This document shows positions 4,960 through 64,000 of a stretch of DNA of 64,000 nucleotides, in pieces (the stretch's first letter is position 1; every line of letters starts with the position of its first letter). The notes beneath the pieces are model-generated. The model searched no databases. It worked only from the letters and a program-made list of their open reading frames with translations, and was not told where the DNA came from. The DNA comes from a virus, in IMG/VR virus record IMGVR_UViG_3300044712_000810, positions 62,001-126,000 of that record, one strand, 5' to 3'. Position numbers and translations under genes: made by a program.

Positions 4960-6510
4960 TTAGCCGATGTAGTTTTCCATACCGTCGACTTTAATGAGTC
5001 CAAGACCTTCGGTACGAGCAACTTCGATCATTGTACGGGAACGAACGAAGTGTCTCATGTTACCATCGGTGATTTCTTGTACGATGTACAGTGGTTGATA
5101 GATAAGATCGATAATTGTGGCTTTCTCAAGAGCATTTTGTGGTGCTTTTGTTGAAAGATACATTTTACCATCATCAACTGCTGGACATTCAAGAACACGC
5201 ATTTGAGCGAATTGTGCGTTAGCACCAGACCAACCGATTTGACCCTTGTTATCAGGCATATTAACCATCATATCCTGAAGTGACTTCAGAAGAGCGGCTG
5301 TACGAAGACCTGTAACAATGTATTGTGGGTACATACGGAAGTTACGGTAAATGATACCGTTAAGAGTAGCAATACGTGGGATAATTGTACGAATGATATC
5401 AAGAACGTTAGCTGGAGCAAAATCACCAGTTCCGCCGCCACGATTGTAGTTACGGAGATCTACGTTTTGAATAGCATTGTTATTAGCCATATCGCCTTCA
5501 GCGGCTTCAAGGAAGTACTTAAGGTCGAAGTCTTTGTTTAAAAGAACCTGACGTTTAATAGCTTCTGAAAGTGTACGAGCAAGGTCAATCTTAAAGATTG
5601 ATTTGTAGTCTTGAATATCTTCTTGTGTAAGTTCAATTAAGAAGTCTTCGTTTGGATCGATTGTTACGTCGGTCATTTCAGTTGTAATCTTAACTTTTGT
5701 ACGACCCTTCATTGATGTTACTGGAGTAAAGCGACATTGGAATGTCATGCTTGAAAGAGTAACAGTGTTGGTTGTACCAGTTGTATCAAGAATTACAGAG
5801 TAAACAACTTCGCCTGAATCCCAGTTTACGTTACCATGCAGTGAACCTGTGACTACGCCACCGTCTGTTGCTTGATAAGTAAATGTGCCTTTAAGACCTG
5901 CACGGTTGTCAGGACGGATTGTTACTGGAATAACTTTAGCAGCACCATTGTCAACAAGGTTTGCCTTGTTAACCATGAAGTAACGACGATTCATTTTGAA
6001 CTTAGCAGCATCAGCACCAAGAGCTGCTGTAAGCAGATTCTCTGGGTTGTTTGGTGCTACGTTGTGCTCGAAGAAGTCAGCACGAACAAGGCTACGAGCT
6101 GTAGGAATAATTTGCTCAGAAACTGTTCCGTCGTAGTTTGTTGTTTTGGCTTTAATACGAACACGTGGGATAGATACAACAGGTGAATCTGTTGGGTATA
6201 CGTTGCAAAGTTCTGAGATGATTGGTTCAGCATAAATGTCTACGAGAATTGGGAAGCTAAGAACGGTCCAACCAAAGCCGAAGCTAGATGCTGGTACGTT
6301 TGCGGCTTCTGTAAGAAGATATTCACGTTGACGATCGGCAATAGCCATAACAACGGCACGACGACCTGCATCAAGACCCTCTGTTAAAGAATCCATGTAT
6401 GCGCGATACATACCGTTGTCAGTGATCATTTTAAGAGCACCGGTAGGACTATTGATGTCATCTGCATGTTCGCGGATAAATAATTCATAGTTTTCGAACA
6501 AAGTCTTCAT
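4960..6510 (-). CDS. Major capsid protein, T4 gp23-like
   Basis: 516 residues, close to T4 gp23 in length. The N-terminus (MKTLFENYELFIRE) looks like a prohead-targeting helix, and E68-A69 in LLTE-AANV fits the (L/I)xE-(A/G) cleavage rule of T4-type prohead proteases; a second match is LTE-G at residues 42-45. The body has the mixed alpha/beta pattern of HK97-fold gp23 homologues (SFPILVDIYAEPIISELCNV near residue 90; MRVLECPAVDDGKMYLS near 435). Base composition is richer in G and C than flanking genes, consistent with codon selection for very high expression. It follows the protease gene as in T4 and is closed by a hairpin. Confidence 0.85.
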   Translation of the reverse strand: MKTLFENYELFIREHADDINSPTGALKMITDNGMYRAYMDSLTEGLDAGRRAVVMAIADRQREYLLTEAANVPASSFGFGWTVLSFPILVDIYAEPIISELCNVYPTDSPVVSIPRVRIKAKTTNYDGTVSEQIIPTARSLVRADFFEHNVAPNNPENLLTAALGADAAKFKMNRRYFMVNKANLVDNGAAKVIPVTIRPDNRAGLKGTFTYQATDGGVVTGSLHGNVNWDSGEVVYSVILDTTGTTNTVTLSSMTFQCRFTPVTSMKGRTKVKITTEMTDVTIDPNEDFLIELTQEDIQDYKSIFKIDLARTLSEAIKRQVLLNKDFDLKYFLEAAEGDMANNNAIQNVDLRNYNRGGGTGDFAPANVLDIIRTIIPRIATLNGIIYRNFRMYPQYIVTGLRTAALLKSLQDMMVNMPDNKGQIGWSGANAQFAQMRVLECPAVDDGKMYLSTKAPQNALEKATIIDLIYQPLYIVQEITDGNMRHFVRSRTMIEVARTEGLGLIKVDGMENYIG

Positions 6511-54680: not shown

Positions 54681-55757
54681 TTAAATATTTGGATTAAATT
54701 TAAAACCTGAAGTAAGTACTTGTATACAAGCATCTACAATGTCATCATCTAACTTGATTCCTCGTTCTTCATTAATTATTGACATAGCCTTATCAATACC
54801 AAGACCAGCACGATACGGTCTATGATTTGTAACTGCTTCAACAACATCAGCAACTGAAATTATTCTAGATAAGAAATGTATTTCATCACCTTTCAGTCCT
54901 AATGGATAACCGGAACCATCTAATCTTTCATGATGTTGATGTATAATTTCATGAACCGGTATCGTATATTTAAATGGAATCTTTTCAACTATTTTAGCAC
55001 CAACTTCTGAATGTAATTTAATAAAATTCATCTCATGTTCAGTTAATTTTCCTGGACGGACTAAGATCTCTGTTGGTGTATAAAATTTGCCAATATCATG
55101 AAGTATTGAAGCTATCTCGAGGCATTCCATATCTTCATCATTTAATTTAAACAATTTCCCAATTTCAAGAGAAAGATGTTTAACTCTCATTTGATGACCA
55201 TATGTATATGGATCTTTAATTTCACCCATTTTCGAAAGTGTTTCAACAGTTGAAACTATAACATCTTTCGAATAATGATTTGTTTTTGTTAATCGCATTT
55301 CAGTATCTTCTAAAACTATAATCGCTCGTTTTAAAGCATCTATATATTTTTTTTCTTTAGATAAATCAACAATAATTCCATAAATTAAATCATTATGTAA
55401 TAACATTGAATCTTTAGCTTCAAATTCTTTACCTGTTTTAAAATTAATAAAAACAGACTCGAGTGAATAGTATTTATTCTTTTTTAATTCTTCAATTGCT
55501 GTAAGTCGAACATTTGAATCGACATATACTTTCGATGAATTAAAATCGTAATCTATCATATGATTAACATCATTATAACCAAATAACTCACAAAAAAATG
55601 AGTTAGCATATAATATATCACCATCAATTGATGTAACATAAACACCAATCTCGGCATTATCAAAAACATCGAAAAACTTTTTTGGGATGCATTTATGTTC
55701 GCAATTAACATTAAGAACATCTCGAAGTTTTTCTAACAACTGTTTTTTATTTTGCAT
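54681..55757 (-). CDS. PAS-HD-GYP protein (probable cyclic-di-GMP phosphodiesterase)
   Basis: 358 residues. PAS domain ~28-135 (IGVYVTSIDGDILYANSFFC), a linker helix, then an HD-GYP domain ~165-355. The catalytic set is intact: H188 (YGHQMRVKHL), H220-D221 (ILHDIGKF), H249 (LHSEVGA), H275/H276-E277 with DGSGYP (280-285), and D304 in SVADVVEAV followed by NHRPYR. HD-GYP enzymes hydrolyse the bacterial second messenger cyclic-di-GMP; related ones also act on cGAMP-type dinucleotides. The PAS part may sense a ligand. It sits among fibre genes, 11 bases from the next, so it is probably made late with the structural genes. Very unusual for a phage; the family call is firm. Confidence 0.85.
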   Translation of the reverse strand: MQNKKQLLEKLRDVLNVNCEHKCIPKKFFDVFDNAEIGVYVTSIDGDILYANSFFCELFGYNDVNHMIDYDFNSSKVYVDSNVRLTAIEELKKNKYYSLESVFINFKTGKEFEAKDSMLLHNDLIYGIIVDLSKEKKYIDALKRAIIVLEDTEMRLTKTNHYSKDVIVSTVETLSKMGEIKDPYTYGHQMRVKHLSLEIGKLFKLNDEDMECLEIASILHDIGKFYTPTEILVRPGKLTEHEMNFIKLHSEVGAKIVEKIPFKYTIPVHEIIHQHHERLDGSGYPLGLKGDEIHFLSRIISVADVVEAVTNHRPYRAGLGIDKAMSIINEERGIKLDDDIVDACIQVLTSGFKFNPNI

Positions 55758-61297: not shown

Positions 61298-62620
61298 TTA
61301 TTGGCCTAAATACTTTTTAGCATCTATGTCCATATTATCTAAATCAAGAACCTTAAGGGCAAAATACTCGGCACTATCTTTTCTGCCACTTTTCTGAAAT
61401 ACTCGAAAAATATTTTTAATGATAGACTTATTACCTTCACCAAATTTACCATTTATAGCTAATGCCTTTTCCAAAAAACTAGAAGAACTTTTAAATTCTC
61501 CACCTTCAGCATAAGCCATTGCAATATTATAATATAAACCTTCATCATTCTTCTTAATTGTTATTGCTTTTTCATATTCACGGATAGCATCACGCCATTT
61601 ACCCTGTTTACGATAAATTATTCCAAGTTTATTAAATACTTCAATATCGCTATCTTCATACTCATTATTTCTATATGCAATAGCTCTTGAATAATATTTA
61701 AGTGCAAGATCTGGATTCTTTTCTTCTGTCATTTCTGCAATCTTTTTAACCAAAACAACAATTTCATGAATAGCATCTTGCGCTGCTAATTTAATCGCTT
61801 CATTAAAATATGACTCAGCAACATCAACTTTACCAAGATCAAGATTTATTTTACCAATTTGCATTTTTCGTTGTGTATTTAAAGGAGATAATCGTTCTAA
61901 TTTATTTAGATATTTTAAAACTTTGTCTGTATCGTTTTTAACAGAATAAGCTTCCGCAAGCTTCTTAATCGGTTCTAAATATAATACCGATTGTCTATGC
62001 GCAAGATCATAATATTCAATAGCTTTATCCGGGTTATTTAAATGATAAAGTTCAATATCACCATATAAAATATTTCCAGTCGGTGAATTAGGTTTTTTAC
62101 TGAGTATTTGTTCGACAATTAATTGAGCGACATCATATTTTCCAAATTCCATATTAGTTTTAGCTTTATCAATAAGTTCACTCAATTCACCGTGTGGTTC
62201 TATAACATTCGATAATTTTTCAACAAGAACATCAACAGAAACTGGTTTAATTACAAAATTTTTAGCACCAAGTTCATGATAAAGTGCTAATATATTTTTA
62301 TGAGTCTCTGTAGTAACTATAATGGTTTTAACATTTTTAAAATTTGATGAAATAGTTCCCAAAATTGAAGTTACAAAACTATTTGAAAAAATCATATCAA
62401 ACACAAAAATGATATTATTACTATCACATCGTTTAAGTTTTGAATACAAGTCAAGATCATTTGATGCAAATATAATTCGATCTAAAGTTGCACCAATATA
62501 CTTAGTTACTGTAATTTTTAATAATTTGAAAAAACTACTATTTTCACCAAGATAAAATATATATCCATTATTTGAATGAAGATAATCGAAAACTGCTTTG
62601 TCGTATTTAGTGTTTTTCAT
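61298..62620 (-). CDS. Degenerate response-regulator receiver plus TPR repeats
   Basis: 440 residues. Residues ~18-140 follow a CheY-like fold: a strand at ~70 with D75 (IIFVFDM), T103/T104 (IIVTTE) and the conserved K125-P126 (NFVIKPVS). The usual acidic pair near the N-terminus is replaced by G-E-N (25-27), so phosphorylation may be weak or lost. Residues ~147-440 are TPR repeats (for example KYDVAQLIVEQILSKKPNSP and KWRDAIREYEKAITIKKNDE), protein-interaction scaffolds. Such fusions are common in environmental bacteria and rare in phages. It is the last gene of the group at 61.3-64 kb. Confidence 0.7.
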   Translation of the reverse strand: MKNTKYDKAVFDYLHSNNGYIFYLGENSSFFKLLKITVTKYIGATLDRIIFASNDLDLYSKLKRCDSNNIIFVFDMIFSNSFVTSILGTISSNFKNVKTIIVTTETHKNILALYHELGAKNFVIKPVSVDVLVEKLSNVIEPHGELSELIDKAKTNMEFGKYDVAQLIVEQILSKKPNSPTGNILYGDIELYHLNNPDKAIEYYDLAHRQSVLYLEPIKKLAEAYSVKNDTDKVLKYLNKLERLSPLNTQRKMQIGKINLDLGKVDVAESYFNEAIKLAAQDAIHEIVVLVKKIAEMTEEKNPDLALKYYSRAIAYRNNEYEDSDIEVFNKLGIIYRKQGKWRDAIREYEKAITIKKNDEGLYYNIAMAYAEGGEFKSSSSFLEKALAINGKFGEGNKSIIKNIFRVFQKSGRKDSAEYFALKVLDLDNMDIDAKKYLGQ

Positions 62621-62623
62621 CGA

Positions 62624-63088
62624 TTATCCTCCATCAGTCATTCTACGTAACTCTGTAAGTATATCTCTTACTTTGTCCGCATCTCCATCGATATCTGTAC
62701 GACGTCTTGACATTGTTTGATGAGGACTGTGAACATCACCAAGAAAAATACTTTTCTTCAACGTAGACACGTCAGCTTCTATTTCACTAACTTTGCTTAA
62801 AATGGTTTGTTGATTTGTAATAATATTATCAACTTTACCTGTTAAAAGTTTCAAATCATCTGAAACTTCTTTGACTTCGCTTTGGTTGTTTTCAACTAAA
62901 TGTTTAGTAACCTCAGTATCAACACTTATAGTTCTAACACTTGCTTCGGTTTTATCAAATGTCAATCTCCATCGAAATTTTAATTCGAATATAAGGGCAA
63001 CTAGCGGAGCCATGCAAGTAATCAGAACCCAAGAAATACCTTGCCAAAACGTCACTGAAAATATTTCTTCTTTTATTGGAAATTCCAT
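62624..63088 (-). CDS. Membrane-anchored coiled-coil protein
   Basis: 154 residues. Membrane segment ~15-36 (WQGISWVLITCMAPLVALIF) then a basic stretch, a long coiled coil (~60-110; LKLLTGKVDNIITNQQTILSK) and an Arg-rich end (SRRRTDIDGDADKVRDIL). It is four bases upstream of the receiver-TPR gene. It could dock that protein at the membrane, but no domain proves it. Confidence 0.7.
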   Translation of the reverse strand: MEFPIKEEIFSVTFWQGISWVLITCMAPLVALIFELKFRWRLTFDKTEASVRTISVDTEVTKHLVENNQSEVKEVSDDLKLLTGKVDNIITNQQTILSKVSEIEADVSTLKKSIFLGDVHSPHQTMSRRRTDIDGDADKVRDILTELRRMTDGG

Positions 63089-63090
63089 AT

Positions 63091-63399
63091 TTAATTACCC
63101 GCATTACAATTTTTATCAATCTCTGTTAAAATCAATTTATATGCATTTGGCACATGGTCCGATTTTCTCACATAAGTTTGAATTGCCCTTGGCGAATTCA
63201 ATGGATCAGACTTTTTAACACCGGTTAATTTCTCAAATACAATCTCATCAATACATAAATATATTTGTTCAGATTGTGCGGCTCTACTTTTTATTTGATC
63301 GTTAATATTTTTTGTAACTTGTTTACCATGTATACTATAATATAGCACACATATAAATAAACTTAAAATAGTCAATATAGATCCTATGTAACGTGTCAT
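63091..63399 (-). CDS. Small membrane-anchored protein
   Basis: 102 residues from ATG 63399 after TGGAGTGTAT. N-terminal membrane segment (~5-22, IGSILTILSLFICVLYYS) with few preceding charges, so the ~80-residue rest is probably outside the cytoplasm. It contains YLCIDEIVFEKLTG and a C-terminal Cys. No family recognised. It overlaps neither neighbour and is 10 bases from the substrate-binding-like gene. Confidence 0.65.
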   Translation of the reverse strand: MTRYIGSILTILSLFICVLYYSIHGKQVTKNINDQIKSRAAQSEQIYLCIDEIVFEKLTGVKKSDPLNSPRAIQTYVRKSDHVPNAYKLILTEIDKNCNAGN

Positions 63400-63409
63400 A
63401 TACACTCCA

Positions 63410-64000
63410 TTAGTAAACAACTATATCATCAGTGAGTATAAGTTTAGAATATCCTAAATAATGAATTCTATTTAAATTCATACTTATAACACTGGTTGTA
63501 TTAAAAACTTGTGGAGTAACCGGTTTTCCATTGACTAATTTAATTAAAATATCACCAGCTTCTTCACCCATTTTTGAAAAAAATGGACCCACACAAGTTG
63601 ATAATCCAATTTTTGCAAATAGTGGATTTATACTAACTTCAAGATGTCTATTATTATGTTTTAATAATTCTTTAATAATTTCTTCTTTGCTTAATGTTTT
63701 CCCAGTCTCAAAGTTAAGTAATCTTTGTGCGGTGAGCATTATTAAACCAGATGGTTTACTTTGTAATTCATTAAGTGCTTTTTTAAATTGATGTAAAGTT
63801 TCACATTTAATAATGACTGGAGTTTCATTCATACTTTTTAAAATATTTCTATATTCATTAGCTATATATGTACTAGTTTCAGAACCATCGTCCGTTATAA
63901 TATAATATTTATCAATAACAACATTATGTTTCTTTAACATTTTAAAATAAGCAGTCATATTTGGAACTTCACATACACCGTATAAATTTTTAAGATTTAA
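63410..64000 (-). CDS. ABC substrate-binding-like protein, partial (N-terminus off right edge)
   Basis: The minus-strand frame is open to the right edge, so the ATG at 63958 is probably internal; the residues before it (NLYGVCEVPN) continue the fold. The pattern resembles the C-terminal part of the ABC_sub_bind family: GVxxxP then a long helix, a strand YYIITDDGSETS like the hinge strand and Ser pair, a middle helix then PSGLIMLTAQRL, and near the end GEEAGDILIKLVNGKPVTPQ and MNLNRIHYLGY, matching the G-x-(x)2-A...G-K-x-P and N-x-x-x-A/I-x-x-L-G endings. These are periplasmic binding proteins, in some bacteria tied to signalling. A phage copy is unusual. N-terminus and signal peptide not visible. 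Confidence 0.5.
   Translation of the reverse strand, partial: LNLKNLYGVCEVPNMTAYFKMLKKHNVVIDKYYIITDDGSETSTYIANEYRNILKSMNETPVIIKCETLHQFKKALNELQSKPSGLIMLTAQRLLNFETGKTLSKEEIIKELLKHNNRHLEVSINPLFAKIGLSTCVGPFFSKMGEEAGDILIKLVNGKPVTPQVFNTTSVISMNLNRIHYLGYSKLILTDDIVVY

Follow-up and report, generated by a model that had tools for sequence, protein, structure and literature searches.

An envelope cassette of jumbo phages joined to two-component and cyclic-dinucleotide genes: a candidate membrane-spanning sensory module in a large phage genome

The stretch of DNA analysed here (the window; 64,000 nucleotides, positions 62,001–126,000 of the 314,837-bp virus record IMGVR_UViG_3300044712_000810) ends within a compact operon of six genes on the minus strand, which combines envelope proteins with proteins of signalling type. 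The right flank beyond window position 64000 could be read from record positions 119000–138000 (L002; window coordinate = L002 + 56999). In 5'–3' order, the operon encodes a stand-alone receiver (P0006, L002 8080–8502) and a PAS protein (P0005, L002 7445–8083), both outside the window, followed by a secreted protein resembling type-I periplasmic binding proteins (P0004, 344 aa, window 63410–64444, L002 6411–7445), a small protein with an N-terminal transmembrane (TM) helix and a periplasmic domain (P0003, 102 aa from its ATG, 63091–63399), a protein consisting of an N-terminal TM helix and a coiled coil (P0002, 154 aa, 62624–63088) and, as the sixth and last gene, a receiver-TPR protein (P0001, 440 aa, 61298–62620). 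Intergenic distances across the operon lie between −1 and +11 bp. The gaps P0004/P0003, P0003/P0002 and P0002/P0001 measure 10, 2 and 3 bp, the stop codon of P0005 and the start codon of P0004 share a TAATG overlap, and P0005 most likely starts at an ATG with a ribosome-binding site, 11 bp past the P0006 stop codon. The original prediction, made from the window sequence, had described the last four of these genes as a tightly spaced sensory operon of a phage. The four minus-strand open reading frames (ORFs) and their spacing are as it described, and the genome is that of a phage with signalling-type genes, encoding a T4-type large terminase, a UvsX-like recombinase and tail genes. Reading past the window end completed P0004 and showed a set larger than claimed, with a histidine kinase, two intact receivers and a PAS protein in addition.

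The gene at the window end had been called ABC substrate-binding-like, an assignment that holds for the fold of a homologue but not for the sequence of P0004, which scores 12.6 bits against PF04392 (ABC_sub_bind; cut-off 25.9, E=0.078). P0004 begins with a signal sequence and matches the phage family phrog_31505 (E=1.6e-8), and a profile of homologues built without P0004 retrieves it from 357 ORFs with E=2.6e-17. AlphaFold2 was applied to a homologue, L016, and not to P0004 itself, using an alignment of L014, L015 and the part of P0004 inside the window; the resulting model shows an alternating alpha/beta fold (mean predicted local distance difference test, pLDDT, 68.7; predicted template-modelling score, pTM, 0.66). 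After re-alignment of Foldseek's best 1000 chains, the top matches of the model were 3lft (a tryptophan-bound ABC domain), 3lkv and 6hni (CD0873), which we take to represent the TrpX-like PF04392 group, with Z-scores of 13.2–13.7 over 234–239 residues and a root-mean-square deviation of about 7; other type-I receptors reached Z-scores of about 10–11. The deviation may reflect a two-lobed protein in another hinge state. The homologue model thus points to a type-I two-lobe binding fold for the P0004 family, with TrpX/CD0873-type proteins as best match. No ABC ATPase (PF00005) over cut-off is encoded in the genome, making a role of P0004 in an ABC importer unlikely, and no relative of P0004 was found in plasmids.

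Members of the phrog_31505 family occur in 59 phage records, the majority from Erwinia and Dickeya jumbo phages, together with Yersinia phage fHe-Yen9-02 and two Pseudomonas records, one of which is PaBG; NCTB is more distant. In the culturable jumbo phages read, the family heads a cassette located between tail-fibre genes, in which the P0004-like gene is followed by genes for a TM protein of about 95 aa with periplasmic cysteines, a TM coiled-coil protein and a 250-aa protein. This order is fixed in at least eight jumbo-phage genomes, with Y3, which lacks an annotated coding sequence for the second gene, as the sole exception, and none of the cassette loci read contains a recognised receiver, PAS domain or kinase. 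Several Erwinia phages and fHe-Yen9-02 have a signal-peptide-like start on their phrog_31505-family ORF. In the Erwinia records read (e.g. L003:7698–8687 and L007:5752–6762) the annotated starts are too short; extended upstream, the ORF shares sequence with the gene before it, read in a different frame, and takes in the signal-peptide-like stretch.

P0003 and P0002 occupy the second and third positions of this cassette. The profile of its homologues places P0003 first of 357 ORFs (E=0.024). Used as the query against 608 ORFs, P0003 has cassette members as its top three matches, and it shares Cys49 and Cys98 with its counterparts. For P0002, which ranks second of 357 with its homologue profile (E=0.015), the slot and the topology in a TM scan are those of the phrog_31730 membrane proteins of jumbo phages. 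For the periplasmic domain of P0003, a resemblance to the T4 antiholin RI was also examined; the model was weak (pTM 0.38), and no significant fold match was listed. In the fourth slot, the receiver-TPR protein P0001 stands in place of the unrelated 250-aa protein found elsewhere (phrog_19088), to which it shows no match. Because the cassette order recurs without signalling genes and the fourth slot is replaced here, the P0004–P0003–P0002 core is an old cassette of jumbo phages; the flanking signalling genes are, as far as seen, specific to this lineage. The co-occurrence proposed for the four genes therefore extends to this trio but not to the receiver-TPR gene, and the view that all four form one co-inherited signalling operon is not supported.

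In P0001, the TPR repeats (residues ~150–415) are certain (Pfam TPR_2, E=3e-23), and the degenerate receiver (~20–142) is, on sequence comparison, weak but real (Response_reg E=0.0044, 2.8e-4 in a search of its own genome, and 4e-5 against CheY structures). As originally described, the acidic pair is lost, being replaced by Gly25-Glu26; the threonine (TT103–104) and Lys125 positions are retained, and the phosphoacceptor depends on the alignment, being Asp75 in one and a residue other than aspartate in the other. P0001 may act without phosphorylation. No homologue of P0001 was detectable in phages. The other two receivers, P0006 (Response_reg 1.1e-21) and P0007 (L002 12902–13321, outside the window; Pfam 2e-24), retain the acidic pair, the phosphoacceptor aspartate, the Thr/Ser and the lysine. 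P0007 resembles the receivers of hybrid kinases such as LuxQ and ArcB and sits 12 bp after P0008 (L002 13334–14872, outside the window), a histidine kinase (HisKA 2.8e-19, HATPase 3.1e-26) with intact boxes MSHEIRTP, NLLGNAIKF, DSGIGI and GTGLGL and two TM helices approximately 180 residues apart. The PAS domain of P0005 matches PAS_4 (1.4e-9). Inside the window, P0009 (358 aa, 54681–55757, minus strand) joins a PAS domain (PAS_8 8e-8) to an HD-GYP domain (HD_5 1.7e-38); with its metal motif LHDIGK and HHERLDGSGYP intact, it is a predicted HD-GYP phosphodiesterase and corresponds to the enzyme originally noted at 54.7 kb.

All three receiver matches of the whole record and its only HisKA kinase fall within one 10.7-kb region, and its one HD-GYP gene, P0009, lies 6 kb downstream of that region. 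The record contains two HATPase matches, the second of which (G000:C1:21666–21971; G000 being the whole record) belongs to a 626-aa ORF at 21.7 kb that is perhaps a topoisomerase subunit. GGDEF, Hpt and PilZ matches are absent from this genome. About 4.4 kb separate the operon from the upstream P0007/P0008 pair, and this interval holds tail-fibre, GH108 endolysin and spanin-like genes. At L002:11402–12617, the gene before that of the endolysin encodes a lipoprotein that carries a TM helix at its C terminus and resembles a unimolecular spanin. Upstream of P0008, the product of L002:15407–15784 is a small membrane protein that weakly matches the beta domain of mechanosensitive channels (E=0.01).

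The G+C content at third codon positions (GC3) is 0.11–0.22 for the signalling genes and thus matches that of the structural genes of the phage (0.12–0.24), so that by this measure they are not recent foreign DNA. A recent bacterial acquisition or an assembly chimera is also unlikely because the neighbouring genes are phage tail and lysis genes and a colinear relative carries comparable signalling genes. Nothing in the phage collection is closely related to this genome, whose terminase is most similar to that of the 484-kb metagenomic phage LR756508 (25.5%). The nearest bacterial HD-GYP domains to that of P0009 share approximately 48–50% identity and include those of Desulfobacteraceae and other deltaproteobacterial bins as well as of unrelated phyla, which gives no more than a weak hint at the host.

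Single-protein scans of IMG/VR with P0004, the terminase, P0009 and P0008 returned nothing, the query peptides not being conserved. Alignment-based scans for HD-GYP and kinase domains gave matches, yet only one colinear relative, the 109-kb G001 reached through the HD-GYP scan (UvsX 54%, several other proteins 40–53%). G001 encodes a PAS-HisKA-HATPase-REC protein, a lone receiver, a REC-HD-GYP protein and PilZ-domain proteins; no P0004-family gene is present in its 109 kb. The PilZ-domain genes (L191:9511–9885, 5186–5572 and 984–1346; best E=2.8e-13) lie near the REC-HD-GYP gene, and their products are likely cyclic-di-GMP receptors. Among the other matches, G002 (234 kb, terminase present) has a REC-HD-GYP gene and a 1207-aa SBP_bac_3-PAS-GAF-HisKA-HATPase-REC protein (L192:9684–13307). 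G017 (278 kb), in which phrog_2 found no terminase, encodes a YfiR/HmsC-like periplasmic protein, a CHASE8 histidine kinase and a receiver consecutively (L195:7763–10090) as well as a GGDEF protein at 227.9 kb. The 735-kb phage LR756501, counted here as a genuine phage, carries an intact PAS-kinase-REC hybrid. Kinase and HD-GYP matches in GenBank records labelled as phage were not counted, since most of these records are faecal or wastewater contigs lacking annotation, and the two annotated records that were read look bacterial. One GenBank record, MW495066.1 (Microcystis phage MaAM05, L004), carries rplK, rplA, nusG, secE, ilvD and kdgA; it is probably mislabelled, because the stretch looks like a bacterial chromosome. 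Across these large phage contigs, two-component genes accompanied by periplasmic sensors thus occur repeatedly; the particular combination found in this window was encountered a single time.

Our best reading of the locus is that an old envelope cassette has been joined in this phage to two-component and cyclic-dinucleotide genes. That this cassette and its signalling neighbours together form a membrane-spanning sensory module of a jumbo phage has, in our estimate, a probability of about one half. Such a module would consist of two parts. In the first, P0004 would be the secreted sensor, P0003 the small membrane protein with a periplasmic domain and P0002 the membrane-anchored coiled coil; the second would comprise P0006 and P0005 upstream in the operon, P0001 as a scaffold downstream, P0008/P0007 as a separate pair and the PAS-HD-GYP protein P0009. 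We hypothesise that, after infection, (i) P0004 binds a periplasmic ligand and serves as a transporter-less sensor; (ii) P0003 and P0002 convey the state of P0004 through the inner membrane to the TPR, PAS and receiver proteins; (iii) P0008 phosphorylates the stand-alone receivers; (iv) the output is exerted through protein–protein contacts, the TPR scaffold having no DNA-binding domain, and through a cyclic dinucleotide lowered by the HD-GYP enzyme, whereby the envelope or motility programme of the infected host, or the timing of lysis, would be reset. In this way the module might, we infer, rewire host signalling, as originally suggested. Transporter-less binding proteins can feed two-component kinases in bacteria, with CuaD-CuaS-CuaR as a tested case (PMC10384115), and by analogy with that system a sensor role is the best reading of P0004.

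We favour a sensing module because the kinase boxes, the receivers and the HD-GYP motifs are intact, the operon genes are coupled and the signalling genes cluster within 10.7 kb. The same reading is drawn from the membership of P0004 in phrog_31505 and its secreted, TrpX/CD0873-like homologue in a genome with no Hpt, no GGDEF and no ABC ATPase over cut-off, and from the signalling genes of G001, the sensor–kinase pairings of G017 and G002, the phage-like GC3 and the bacterial precedent. Several observations weigh against it. Many phages have the cassette with no signalling genes close by, so that P0004–P0002 need not signal through such genes, and tail and lysis genes occupy the 4.4 kb that separate the kinase pair from the operon. 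No DNA-binding response regulator or Hpt connecting the receivers to an output was found in the genome, and the receiver of P0001 is possibly not phosphorylatable. The homology of P0003 and P0002 follows mainly from position and topology, their E-values alone being weak; structural confidence is modest (mean pLDDT 68.7) and concerns the homologue rather than P0004. A close relative with the whole signalling set was not found. A further-reaching version, in which a lytic jumbo phage operates a transmembrane circuit of its own, with the binding protein reading an external or envelope signal from which phage proteins decide lysis timing or host behaviour, and in which the Erwinia, Dickeya, Yersinia and Pseudomonas cassettes are a stripped-down form of the same sensor, strikes us as rather doubtful.

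The main rival holds that two unrelated things adjoin here: an envelope cassette that serves infection in its own way, for example in lysis control or superinfection exclusion, and signalling genes that were acquired independently and act on host pathways. The operon would then amount to no more than shared transcription. We regard it as a tentative but serious alternative: the cassette keeps its order in the culturable jumbo phages with no signalling genes nearby, other large phages have signalling genes and no cassette, and an endolysin and a spanin-like gene intervene between operon and kinase in this phage. Weighing against this rival are the translational coupling of the receiver and PAS genes directly upstream of P0004 and the receiver-TPR gene 3 bp downstream of P0002; bacterial binding proteins can moreover be sensors, and a transporter ATPase partner over cut-off is absent here. 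Alternatively, the HD-GYP protein and the degenerate receiver could be counter-defence nucleotide enzymes that cleave the signals of CBASS or type III CRISPR systems instead of taking part in signalling. HD-GYP enzymes have already been described in several jumbo phages and interpreted in this way in a jumbo-phage survey (PMC7824862). We consider this improbable here, given the N-terminal PAS domain of P0009, the signalling-enzyme layout of relatives with REC-HD-GYP and PilZ proteins, and the intact kinase. Slightly less probable still is that P0004 is a nutrient-scavenging binding protein working with a host ABC transporter, i.e. an auxiliary metabolic gene accompanied by unrelated kinase and HD-GYP morons: its secretion and the Trp/Tyr-binding-like fold modelled for its homologue would suit this role, but the phage has no ABC ATPase over cut-off, the P0004 sequence is far from PF04392, and two membrane proteins without transporter domains always follow the phrog_31505-family gene.

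An apparently complete sensing circuit of bacterial type, set among the tail and lysis genes of a phage, suggests that large phages may read and reset the signalling of their hosts during infection; should the module operate as proposed, the course of an infection could depend on envelope sensing. Individual auxiliary or counter-signalling genes are known from phages; a kinase–receiver–scaffold–phosphodiesterase set with a periplasmic sensor is not, within the searches made. The original claim that no such phage system had been described thus needs qualification for the HD-GYP component, and stands in so far as no report of a kinase-receiver set was found: none appears in the passages matched of the jumbo-phage survey (PMC7824862), and the phrases phage-encoded histidine kinase, two-component and response regulator occurred in no open-access full text, which is weak evidence as most subscription papers and preprints are not covered. 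The secreted binding protein and its membrane relay would also provide a first functional lead for the conserved cassette of culturable jumbo phages.

In comparison with known systems, P0008 shares an intact HisKA-HATPase in a huge phage with the kinase of LR756501; the latter is a PAS-kinase-REC hybrid, and its genome has no P0004-family gene beyond a weak partial match. Like the jumbo-phage enzymes in the parts of the survey consulted (PMC7824862), P0009 is a predicted phage-encoded HD-GYP phosphodiesterase; unlike them, it is fused to a PAS domain and accompanied by a kinase-receiver set. With TrpX/CD0873-type ABC_sub_bind proteins (3lft, 3lkv, 6hni), P0004 has in common secretion and, as judged from the homologue model, the two-lobed type-I fold; it differs in having no ATPase partner that could be found and a sequence under the PF04392 cut-off. 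The phrog_31505/phrog_31730 cassette of Yoloswag, Y3, PaBG, NCTB, AD1 and JA13-type phages shows the same order of a secreted, a ~95-aa TM and a TM coiled-coil gene in a tail-fibre region, whereas its fourth gene is the phrog_19088 250-aa protein, no receiver, PAS or kinase lies nearby, and identity to P0004 is only about 20%. A further parallel is offered by three-component systems in which a binding protein works with a two-component pair, CuaDSR and XylFII-LytS, which share with this locus a transporter-less binding protein beside receiver genes and a kinase with an extracytoplasmic domain. Here, in contrast, the kinase is not adjacent (4.4 kb upstream) and no DNA-binding regulator is present, and the set is phage-borne and additionally includes membrane proteins, a TPR scaffold and an HD-GYP protein.

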